From Candidatus Poribacteria bacterium (GTDB taxonomy: Bacteria > Poribacteria > WGA-4E > PCPOR2b), in contig JAJEAL010000129.1 of NCBI GenBank assembly GCA_022822785.1, positions 1 through 40,818 on the forward strand: a DNA stretch of 40,818 bases, read 5' to 3'. The translations under genes and the position numbers were made by a program. Position 1 is the first letter of the stretch. Each line of letters starts with the position of its first letter. Below, in pieces: positions 11,207 through 15,556 of this stretch. Under the pieces are notes generated by a model. It was not told the DNA's origin. It did no database searches and was given only the letters and a program-made list of their open reading frames with translations.

Positions 11207-12106
11207 ATGCAGTATCGGAGACTTGGACGCACAGAACTAGAGGTATCCGAACTCGGTTTTGGCGCATGGCACATCGGCTGGACACCGCCGGAAGAAGGAG
11301 ATGATATCGGCCGTCTCCTGAACCGCGCGCTGGACGCTGGAGTCAATTTTATCGATTCTTCAGCAGCATACCGATGGAGCGAGGAATTGATTGCCAAGTA
11401 CATCGGGCATCGGCAAGATGAGTTCTATTTCGCCACTAAGTGTGGCTCGTGGCGGGTGCAGCAGCCGGATGGCGAATGGGTACAAACGTTGGATTATTCC
11501 GCCAAAGCGATTGAGCCACAGATAGACCGAAGTTTACAACGACTGAAGACAGACTGTATTGACATTATGCAGCTGCACAGTCCCAAGTATGATGATGTCG
11601 CTTTCGGGGACGGATTGGAAGGGCTTAAAAAAGCGCAGGCTGCAGGAAAAATCCGTTTTATCAGTCTATCGGCAGATGGGGAAACTGCACTCAAAGCAAT
11701 TGAGATTGGTGAATACGATACGCTGCAGCTCACCTACAACGTGTTTGATCAAGCACCGGCAGAAGTCATTGCTGCCGCCCACGAACAAGATATGGGAATC
11801 ATCATCAAAGGCCCTATCGCGAATGCCATTTACGAAACACCACAACCTAATGAAAGCAACGCTACGATGTGGCATAACGCACGAAAGATTCTTGCCCCGG
11901 AGGTGATAGGCGATATGTCCCGCGTTGAGGCGTCGTTGCGGTGGCTGCTGTGCGACTCAGATGTTCACACCGCTATCGTCGGCACCACCAACATTAGTCA
12001 TTTTGAGGACAACCTTGCCGGTGTGGAACGCGGTCGGTTGTCAGACGAAACGTTATCGGAAATCCGCCGTCGATATGAGCGGGTTACAGCCGAAAACACC
12101 GAATAA
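11207..12106 (+). CDS. Aldo/keto reductase
   Basis: NAD(P)H-dependent carbonyl reductase with a (beta/alpha)8 barrel, 299 residues. The complete catalytic tetrad is visible: D50 and Y55 in FIDSSAAYRWSEE, K78 in FATKCG and H124 in MQLHS. The C-terminal IVGTTNISHFEDNL segment is the expected cofactor-binding end. AAAAAGGAGAAAGACC provides a strong ribosome-binding site. In this cluster it could reduce a sugar-derived aldehyde or ketone. The selenoprotein gene starts 43 bases downstream. Confidence 0.93.
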   Translation: MQYRRLGRTELEVSELGFGAWHIGWTPPEEGDDIGRLLNRALDAGVNFIDSSAAYRWSEELIAKYIGHRQDEFYFATKCGSWRVQQPDGEWVQTLDYSAKAIEPQIDRSLQRLKTDCIDIMQLHSPKYDDVAFGDGLEGLKKAQAAGKIRFISLSADGETALKAIEIGEYDTLQLTYNVFDQAPAEVIAAAHEQDMGIIIKGPIANAIYETPQPNESNATMWHNARKILAPEVIGDMSRVEASLRWLLCDSDVHTAIVGTTNISHFEDNLAGVERGRLSDETLSEIRRRYERVTAENTE

Positions 12107-12149: not shown

Positions 12150-13067
12150 GTGGTAACAGAAAGAAAAGAGAAATACTTTGCGTCTCAGCGTTTAAATAGA
12201 AATATGCGAAGCTTCATGGTTGCTGTGATGTTTTTGGTATTTACAGTGTCGATTTCGCAAGGCTTGGAAGTGGGCAATAGTGCTTTAGAAAAGACCTTCA
12301 CTGCCGGTGACAAGCAGATTGAATTCGCTGATTTTCATGGAAAATCTAATCTCATCGTTGCGGGCGATGCAGCCAAGCACCCAGAATTTATCTCCCAGCT
12401 GGAGCGGAAAACCGAAGAATTCAAAACTACGTATGATGCAACAGTCGTGCGTGTACAGGAGGAGATTGGACTCTTTGTCATTGATAAGTCGGGGTATGTG
12501 CGTTGGGAGTTTCTCACCGATGCCGGCCTCGCACAGTCTGCGATTGGAGAACTCGAAGCTGAGCTGGCAAAGCTCAAACGCGAAAAGTTATTGCCGATTG
12601 GTTCACCGGCACCAGATTTCCGACTGATAGATGCGGAGCATGGTATTCCCTTCCGTCTTTCCAATTACAAAGAAAAAAAGCATGTATTAGTCACGCTGCT
12701 GCTGCAAACCTACTGACCGTACTGTGCCAATTTCACGTCGCAGTTTGCGACAAATCGTCAGCTGTTTGATGAAAAGTATGAAACCGTTGTTGTTGCTATC
12801 AAACCTGAACCGAAACCGGTTGCCTTTCGCTTCAAAGATCCCCTGACAATGGACATACCACTTCTAGCGGATCCCGGCTCATCCGTTCATGAAGCGTACG
12901 GAATCGTGAAACCGTATCGTTTTCACAACCGGGATATGTATCTACCAGCAACCTTCCTGATTGACAAGCAGGGCGTTTTGAGATGGAGGTATATCAGTAA
13001 GAAGAACTCTGATCGCCCCAGCTTGGATTCGATTGTCGAACAACTTGAAAAATTAAATGCTGAATGA
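12150..13067 (+). CDS. Putative selenoprotein: AhpC/TSA-TlpA-like redox protein with U-P-Y-C centre
   Basis: A 305-residue thioredoxin-fold protein if the single in-frame TGA at 12714-12716 is read as selenocysteine (residue 189). Upstream of the TGA lie a hydrophobic signal or anchor segment (MRSFMVAVMFLVF...), a degenerate thioredoxin-like domain without active cysteines, and the GSPAPDFRLID entry of an AhpC/TSA domain. The strand then runs into T-Y-U-P-Y-C. This is the WCPYC position of family members, so U replaces the peroxidatic Cys and C192 resolves it. After the TGA the same frame continues coherently through IPLLADPGSSVHEAYGI to ATFLIDKQGVLRWRY. A SECIS-like hairpin follows. The GTG start at 12150 has AGGGA upstream; the ATG at 12204 would give 287 residues. 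The alternative is a nonsense mutation. Confidence 0.82.
12730..12755 (+). promoter_or_regulatory. Candidate bacterial SECIS hairpin
   Basis: Inner stem GTCGCA (12737-12742) pairs perfectly with TGCGAC (12746-12751) around the loop GTT. An outer helix ATTT/AAAT closes it across a three-base 5' bulge. The loop begins with G and starts 26 bases after the TGA. Both features fit the published bacterial SECIS model (guanine among the first two loop bases, about 16-37 bases from the UGA). It would recruit SelB. Folding was judged by eye. Confidence 0.7.
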
Positions 13068-13083
13068 ATTGTAGGAGCATATT

Positions 13084-14331
13084 ATGACCTCAAAAGATTT
13101 TATCGTCAAAGACATTGAGCGGATTGTGCTAAATGTCCCTTTCCATCCACGTTGTGCACATGTAAAGGAAGTTCGAGTCTCCGACTGGTCCGTTGTGGAG
13201 TTGTGCAAGGTAACTACCGCTTCGGGCGTCGTTGGTGTTGGAGAGACGCTTCCGCACTATACCTGGGGACGGTCAGGAGACGAACAGTTTAACCGAGTAC
13301 GCAACCGAAACCTTTTTGATTTTCTCATGGACGACAGCCTAGGAGCCGGATTACAGATGGCACTGTTCGATGCCGCCGGCAAATCGCTAGAGGTGCCGTG
13401 CCATCGCCTGATGGGATCGCAGTATCGCGAAACCTGTCCAGTGTCTTGGTGGGCGCAAGATATGAAACCCGAAGAATGGGCAGCGGAGGCAAAAACGGCG
13501 GAGGCACACGGTTTCACAAATATCAAGGTGAAAGCGCGTCCCTGGTTCGATATTGACCAGCAACTAGCAGCCGTCTGCGAAGCCGTATCGCCGCACTTTA
13601 AGCTGGATGCAGACTTCAATGCATTGCTTTTGGGTGTAGATTTGGCAGCGCCGTTAATCAGTCGTCTAGAACAGAAATACAGCAATTTGGCGATTGTGGA
13701 ATCCCCTATTCCGCAAGAGGATGTGGAGGGAAATGCGCTGCTACGACAGAAAATCCACACTCCGATTGCTATGCACATGGGGAGTCCGCCGGTGATGACC
13801 GCGATTCGGGAGGGTGTATGTGACGGATTTGTCATCGGGGGAGGCGTCAATCGTACATTGAAGGATGGCATCCTGGCAGAACGAGCGCAGATGCCATTCT
13901 GGTTGCAGATGGTCGGGACAGGCTTGACCACTATATTCTCTGTCCATTTGGGCGCGGTGCTACAGAGTGCCCGTTGGCCCGCCATTCCGTGTATCAATAT
14001 TTTCTCGCACAACCTGCTCAAGGAGTTTAAAGTAGAGGGTGGGCATGTCAAAGTTCCGGAAGCACCCGGGCTGGGTGTTGACCTCGACTGGGATGCCATC
14101 GAGCAGTTTCGTGTTGACCCTGACTTCAAGAAGCCGATTGCACGTCAGATTCACACTATTTTATGGCCCGATGGTCGACAAACGCACTATCCGGACGGCG
14201 GCTATCGATCGGTTTTCCTCGCCGGTAAACTTCCGCCCTTTCTACCGGGCGTTTCCTTAGAGCGACGGTTGGACGACGGTTCGGAAGCATTTGATAGGGA
14301 ATATCGTCAACTTTTCCCCGAAATGAGTTGA
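13084..14331 (+). CDS. Enolase-superfamily protein (mandelate racemase/muconate lactonizing type)
   Basis: A 415-residue two-domain protein. The K148-x-K150 motif in NIKVKARP supplies the usual general base, D175 or D177 in LDADFNA is the first metal ligand, and E206 in IVESP is the second. The third metal site, normally D-E in an IALDE-type strand, reads IAMHMG (H231), so metal binding may be altered. PGLGVDLDWD closes the family C-terminus. An extra tail of about 70 residues follows. It probably dehydrates, racemises or cycloisomerises a sugar acid, but the substrate is unknown. GTAGGAGC precedes the ATG. It starts 16 bases after the selenoprotein gene, so the two are likely in one operon. 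Confidence 0.85.
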   Translation: MTSKDFIVKDIERIVLNVPFHPRCAHVKEVRVSDWSVVELCKVTTASGVVGVGETLPHYTWGRSGDEQFNRVRNRNLFDFLMDDSLGAGLQMALFDAAGKSLEVPCHRLMGSQYRETCPVSWWAQDMKPEEWAAEAKTAEAHGFTNIKVKARPWFDIDQQLAAVCEAVSPHFKLDADFNALLLGVDLAAPLISRLEQKYSNLAIVESPIPQEDVEGNALLRQKIHTPIAMHMGSPPVMTAIREGVCDGFVIGGGVNRTLKDGILAERAQMPFWLQMVGTGLTTIFSVHLGAVLQSARWPAIPCINIFSHNLLKEFKVEGGHVKVPEAPGLGVDLDWDAIEQFRVDPDFKKPIARQIHTILWPDGRQTHYPDGGYRSVFLAGKLPPFLPGVSLERRLDDGSEAFDREYRQLFPEMS

Positions 14332-14371: not shown

Positions 14372-15556
14372 ATGAACTTCCCAAATTCGGGGGTATCTTC
14401 CTTCACAATTCCACCAACTGTAATCACCGGTATCGGCGCAGCGGAGCAGGTCGGAGAGCAGGCGAAGCGATTGGGCGGAGAGAAGACGTTAGTTGTTACC
14501 GATCCGGGAATTTCCAAACTCGGTTACGCCGACGCGACTGTAAAACAGCTTAACGCCGCTGGGATTGAAACATCCATTTTTGAGGACGTGACGCCGGATC
14601 CAACGCTACAAAACGTCAACGATGGTTTGGAACAGTACCGTAGCGATGGCTGCAACCTGATTGTCAGCATTGGCGGTGGTAGCGCGATTGACTGTGGGAA
14701 GGGTATCGCTGTAAAACTTACCAACGATGCCCCGCTCGCAGAATACATGGGCGTGAATAAGATTCCCAACCCGGGTATACCCCTCATCGCTATACCAACG
14801 ACGGCGGGAACGGGCAGTGAGTGCACAAAAGTTACAGTGCTTACCGACACCGAGCGAAACGTGAAGATGATGCTCAGCAGCCCGTGTTTGCTAGCCCAGG
14901 TCGCACTTATCGATCCGTTGTTGTCGTTGACAACACCGCCACATCTGACTGCAGCCGTTGGCATTGACGCTCTAACACACGCTATTGAAGCCTATATATC
15001 CCAGCGTGGCCAACCGATTACCGATGCGCTGTCGTTGAAAGCGATTCGTCTGATCTCCGGTTCGATGCGTCAAGCGTGGGCAAATGGTGAGAACATTGAA
15101 GCGCGAACGGATATGATGATCGGGGCATCCATTGCGGGAATGGCGTTTAGCAACTCGTCCGTTGCATTGGTGCACGGAATGTCCCGCCCAATCGGGGCAT
15201 ATTTCCACATCCATCACGGATTATCAAATTCTGTTCTGCTATTAGACGTCATGGAGTTCAGCGTTGTTGGAACCCCTGAACGCTTCGCCGCCATTGCCCG
15301 TGCAATGGGTGAACCGACCGAGGGTTTGTCGCTGATGGGACAGGCAGATCGTGCAATCGCAGCGGTGGAACGGTTGATTAACGATATTCAGATGCCACGC
15401 TTGGGGGAAATTGGGATTGATTTGGACAAGTTCGAGGCGGTCGTGGATCAAATGGCATCGGACGCCATTGCAAGCGGTAGTCCCGCCAACAACCCACGCC
15501 AACCAACACACGAAGAGATTGTTGCCCTGTACCGGAGATGCTTTGCAGAACGGTAG
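14372..15556 (+). CDS. Iron-type (group III) alcohol dehydrogenase
   Basis: NAD-dependent dehydrogenase of 394 residues. The nucleotide site is GGGSAIDCGK (101-110). The divalent metal ligands are all present: D199 and H203 in GIDALTHAIE, H268 in VALVHGM and H282 in HIHHG. PTTAGTGSE near 142-150 is also typical. The substrate could be lactaldehyde, 1,3-propanediol or another short alcohol. Here it may process an aldehyde made by the preceding enolase-superfamily enzyme. The start has AAAGGAGC. It is the last gene of the + strand cluster and converges on the oxygenase operon with only nine bases between. Confidence 0.93.
   Translation: MNFPNSGVSSFTIPPTVITGIGAAEQVGEQAKRLGGEKTLVVTDPGISKLGYADATVKQLNAAGIETSIFEDVTPDPTLQNVNDGLEQYRSDGCNLIVSIGGGSAIDCGKGIAVKLTNDAPLAEYMGVNKIPNPGIPLIAIPTTAGTGSECTKVTVLTDTERNVKMMLSSPCLLAQVALIDPLLSLTTPPHLTAAVGIDALTHAIEAYISQRGQPITDALSLKAIRLISGSMRQAWANGENIEARTDMMIGASIAGMAFSNSSVALVHGMSRPIGAYFHIHHGLSNSVLLLDVMEFSVVGTPERFAAIARAMGEPTEGLSLMGQADRAIAAVERLINDIQMPRLGEIGIDLDKFEAVVDQMASDAIASGSPANNPRQPTHEEIVALYRRCFAER

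Follow-up and report, generated by a model that had tools for sequence, protein, structure and literature searches.

Peroxiredoxin (Prx)-like thiol:disulfide oxidoreductases of the PF00578 family that carry a UxxC motif are an established class of selenoproteins (PMC9312934, PMC13188914, PMC2398784). The gene described here lies on a 40,818-nt stretch of Poribacterial DNA (hereafter the window, contig C120 of a 5.6 Mb genome). Its product resembles this class ('Prx-like 1' of the GOS survey), which is common in marine bacteria, in the PF00578 domain, the UxxC motif (UPYC and variants in the window protein and its orthologues) and the apparent bacterial mode of selenocysteine (Sec) insertion. 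The window protein differs, however, by an additional tandem Prx domain devoid of an active site and by an invariant LLQTYUxxC block; this two-domain form has so far been found only in Poribacteria. The best NCBIfam match is to SelL and SelL-related proteins (NF040769), with which the protein shares the Prx-like fold and Sec at the CxxC position, but the score of 38 bits falls short of the cut-off of 120, and the second position of the motif is occupied by Cys, in contrast to the UxxU motif of SelL. ResA and TlpA likewise are exported thioredoxin (Trx)-fold proteins with a CxxC motif and detectable sequence similarity to the window protein, which, unlike them, has Sec, two domains and a closer match to the Prx-type fold; the corresponding curated family models scored below their cut-offs (35.5 of 170 and 16 of 230 bits). 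Thus, of the earlier designation of this gene as a two-domain 'AhpC/TSA-TlpA-like' protein, the AhpC/TSA part stands, whereas 'TlpA-like' is better replaced by a Prx fold with a Trx-type UxxC motif. In structure comparisons with the predicted model, the best matches are the peroxiredoxins of the Bcp/PrxQ (Bcp4, 3hjp: Z 21.6, rmsd 2.0 over 155 residues) and AhpE (Z about 20) types, from which the window protein is distinguished by Sec at the position of Thr in TxxC and by the lack of Pro in PxxxTxxC. We regard it as a new two-domain subfamily of the known UxxC Prx-like class, limited so far to Poribacteria, with a chemistry and a substrate that we infer. The features of the gene are as follows.

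12204-13067, + strand: selenoprotein coding sequence, 287 codons plus stop, with Sec as residue 171 (start chosen from orthologues)
12204-12263, + strand: signal-peptide-like N-terminus MRSFMVAVMFLVFTVSISQG, with probable cleavage before LEVG (direct reading and alignment)
12264-12578, + strand: degenerate N-terminal Prx-fold domain without active-site Cys or Sec, duplicate of the C-terminal domain (HHalign)
12585-13064, + strand: catalytic AhpC/TSA (PF00578) domain (profile and structure matches)
12714-12716, + strand: in-frame TGA read as Sec, the U of UPYC (codon common to orthologues)
12723-12725, + strand: TGT, encoding the Cys that is the partner thiol in UPYC; the residue aligns with the peroxidatic Cys of peroxiredoxins
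12737-12751, + strand: putative bacterial SECIS hairpin inside the coding sequence, GTCGCA-GTT-TGCGAC (synonymous-site conservation, shuffle test)
12945-12947, + strand: codon of the invariant Pro248 in LPATFLID, a probable cis-Pro-like loop (alignment)

With TGA read as U, the frame 12150-13067 contains a single internal U, at codon 189, directly followed by PYC and then by an open frame up to the terminal TGA (13065-13067), just as the earlier note described: one TGA, at the first position of the redox motif, in an otherwise open frame. The GTG at 12150 proposed there as the start of a 305-codon frame is, however, 54 nt too far upstream. It is ruled out by one orthologue (G022), in which a stop codon lies just upstream of the equivalent, conserved ATG, and hence ATG 12204 is most likely the start, yielding a protein of 287 residues with Sec171. 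The N-terminus that results has the appearance of a signal peptide, in agreement with the suggestion that the protein is secreted or membrane-anchored, and the product is probably exported.

The catalytic domain matches PF00578 with an E-value of 5e-20 (72 bits against a cut-off of 26) and is predicted to adopt the Prx fold; the AlphaFold model has a mean pLDDT of 77.7, with low values near the active site (blocks averaging 49-70). The N-terminal domain had been described as a degenerate Trx-fold domain, and this is borne out by HHalign, which aligns it with the C-terminal domain with a probability of 98. The G017 orthologue has the least shortened N-terminal domain, and there the identity between the halves reaches 34% (E 7e-20). 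The motif position of the N-terminal domain reads FLQTQQID. Judging from these alignments, the Prx domain was duplicated in tandem, and the N-terminal copy no longer has an active site.

Taken as a whole, the locus very probably encodes an exported selenoprotein, a Prx-like thiol:disulfide oxidoreductase produced by SECIS-aided UGA decoding. In the mechanism that we propose, in which the direction of electron flow, the substrate and the role of the inactive N-terminal domain are presumptive, the UGA at 12714 would be decoded by tRNA-Sec and SelB with the aid of the hairpin at 12737-12751. The N-terminal Prx copy lacks an active site and in most lineages is also shorter by about 40 core residues; the C-terminal copy, with Sec171-Pro-x-Cys174, would be the catalytic one. 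The selenolate of Sec171 would attack disulfides (or peroxides), and Cys174 would resolve the intermediate, forming a selenenylsulfide that is later re-reduced, such that the product would work as a periplasmic Prx-like thiol:disulfide oxidoreductase. Sequence by itself does not separate a thiol oxidoreductase from a peroxidase, and the selenoprotein could instead be a periplasmic GPx- or Prx-like peroxidase that detoxifies peroxides. Such a role would fit the Prx fold of the catalytic domain and the alignment with 2ywn, in which Cys174 falls on the peroxidatic Cys, and Sec often raises peroxidase activity. However, in the same alignment, Sec171 takes the place of Thr in the TxxC of peroxiredoxins, and the Pro of PxxxTxxC is absent, so that the classical peroxiredoxin site is not found in the window protein; furthermore, as read from the sequence, LPATFLID has a cis-Pro-like residue where peroxiredoxins usually carry the catalytic Arg. 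We consider a peroxidase possible but rather unlikely.

The TGA codon is strictly conserved. Across 85 Poribacteria genomes, an orthologue is present in at least 19, counting the window's own copy, and TGA occurs at the same codon, with Cys at +3, in all 19. The other 18 orthologues are 48-74% identical to the window protein (BLASTP), and the set spans five genera (g1, g2, g4, g10 and g11) from two families; no close orthologue with Cys at the TGA position was seen among the 19. As all orthologues found share this codon, the TGA is not there by chance. More distant Poribacterial relatives include both Sec variants (UPFC, UPNS, TGGU and others) and Cys variants (WCPVC, FCPYC, WCPNS), and a redox Cys occupies the TGA position in the distant homologues L091 and L092. 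A comparison of homologues had been suggested as a check, and its outcome is Sec in 19/19 orthologues and Cys further afield. A scan across genome contigs found only Poribacteria. Among members of genus g1, the part downstream of the TGA has a dN/dS of 0.05-0.11, indicative of purifying selection, and is therefore translated and selected.

The stem formed by 12737-12742 (GTCGCA) and 12746-12751 (TGCGAC) encloses a GTT loop, the G of which comes first and lies 26 nt after the UGA. Bacterial SECIS elements are hairpins with G at the loop start, 16-37 nt after the UGA, and the hairpin in the window has both properties, although it is weak in part of the g11 clade. When the codons of this peptide are shuffled synonymously, only 1.5% of the shuffles reach the energy of the local hairpin (-6.6 kcal/mol); the hairpin with a G-first loop reported in the earlier note is thus present and beats 98.5% of the shuffles. 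Codon identity, computed only over orthologue pairs with the same amino acid at the site, is 0.72 in codons +4 to +14 versus a mean of 0.50 elsewhere, a value equalled by none of 189 other windows. The stem has a G-A mismatch in the g11 clade (6 of the 16 distinct sequences of the whole set) and, in two of these sequences, an A-C mismatch as well, so that the predicted element is weak there; a two-sided stem change was found in one sequence pair only. The minimum free energy of the whole region is nothing special (z 0.03), the signal being limited to the local hairpin. For 17 of the 22 Poribacterial Sec codons tested, the local hairpin passes the synonymous shuffle at 5%, and the stem sequences of the passing hairpins often differ. 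We take the hairpin at 12737-12751 to be a coding-embedded bacterial SECIS. An alternative hairpin, pairing alignment columns 9-14 with 25-30, has 88.5% of cells paired but shows no two-sided change, and its loop departs from the SECIS rule. A comparison of hairpins between Sec and Cys genes was abandoned in favour of the synonymous shuffle, as the Cys set held chance motif matches. As a separate observation, the Cys version (FFRGTWCPNS) of a widespread FFRGTWUPNS selenoprotein at L097 (G027:C2) keeps the hairpin of a Sec copy, possibly a fossil SECIS.

The genes that the earlier note proposed to look for, selA, selB, selD and that of tRNA-Sec, are all present in the same genome. The tRNA-Sec (74.6 bits, UCA anticodon) is encoded on contig C141, where selB (366.6 bits) and selA (589.4 bits) adjoin it in one cluster, whereas selD, which itself has Sec in its motif KTCGUAAK, is on contig C25. 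Across the phylum, tRNA-Sec was found in 73 of the 85 genomes searched, including all 19 with an orthologue of the Sec-Prx gene; none was seen in G001, G003 and G004. Together with the 19/19 conservation of TGA and the SECIS signature, this machinery supports the proposed selenoprotein with a UPYC site, with Sec inserted, as we read it, at residue 171. Were the UGA instead translated as Cys or Trp, through a different suppressor tRNA or an altered genetic code, an ordinary CPYC protein would result. This would be in line with the Cys at this position in more distant homologues, but TGA is the ordinary stop in 6 of the 17 genes of the window, the Sec gene also ends in TGA, tRNA-Sec is the only tRNA with a UCA anticodon seen among the candidate loci, and the full SelABD set accompanies the SECIS signature, all of which makes such decoding very improbable. 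On another reading, the gene is decaying and the TGA is a nonsense mutation or a sequencing error; one might point to G084, where only N- and C-terminal remnants of an orthologue persist at the syntenic site beside tsaB (L082:7900-8160), the active-site middle being gone. This reading is already refuted because the TGA is conserved: fixation in 19 genomes excludes an error, no further lesion follows the TGA and strong purifying selection acts downstream of it, so that its probability is close to nil.

The Sec gene has the following neighbours in the window.

11207-12106, + strand: aldo/keto reductase gene, upstream, genus-level neighbour
13084-14331, + strand: MR_MLE (enolase superfamily) gene, downstream, genus-level neighbour
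14372-15556, + strand: Fe-alcohol dehydrogenase (Fe-ADH) gene, genus-level neighbour

The position between the aldo/keto reductase gene and the MR_MLE/Fe-ADH pair is shared by all six genomes of genus g1. In family f4 and in G017, the Sec gene is instead located between tsaB and a polysaccharide flippase gene, with one extra gene after tsaB in G017, and in G015 the Sec gene comes after tsaB and a transposase gene and before a distant MR_MLE gene (31% to that of the window). The link with the enolase-superfamily and Fe-ADH genes, which had been taken as co-transcription, thus holds in one genus but not beyond. Given that the neighbours change between genera, they do not fix the function of the Sec gene, and reading the function from the operon is ruled out beyond the genus.

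The gene provides a phylum of largely uncultivated sponge symbionts with concrete selenoenzymes. Annotation will probably split it into two fragments, so that its function is easily missed; our open-access literature search found no paper naming both 'Poribacteria' and 'selenoprotein'. In a metagenome study, selA and selB co-occur in sponge symbionts of various phyla and are missing in most close relatives (PMC5649159). Tentatively, Poribacteria might rely on an expanded repertoire of Prx-like Sec proteins, the two-domain exported type being specific to the phylum, as a principal means of redox defence or signalling in sponge tissue, with the dead N-terminal domain docking a partner or substrate. 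If true, such a Sec-Prx redox system would explain the enrichment of SelA and SelB in sponge symbionts.

AhpC/TSA genes are numerous across the 85 Poribacteria genomes (as many as 32 matches in a single genome), and one in-frame TGA is present in many of those listed. Paralogous Sec-Prx genes are thus plentiful in the phylum. A crude scan of ~1.1 Mb of the window's own genome for bridging TGA codons yielded, beyond Prx-like genes, the neighbour of selD and L202, mostly gene junctions and noise. At L202:10033 (G000:C63), an AhpC/TSA gene has TGA in UPKD, without a partner Cys, and its hairpin passes the synonymous shuffle. On the same contig (L086:5421 and 5874, minus strand), a 348-codon frame encodes a pair of Prx domains, both of which contain Sec in a TGGU motif of the TxxU type, and is a candidate double selenoperoxiredoxin. 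Methionine synthase is not named in the 2026 review searched. Beside selD (L088:4854, G000:C25, minus strand), a MetE-like gene (PF01717, 56.9 bits) contains an in-frame TGA: its motif reads FHLURGN against HVCRGN in relatives, which places Sec at a presumed zinc-ligand Cys. TGA is also the codon at this site in each of the six orthologues from g1 and g2 (77-87% identity).
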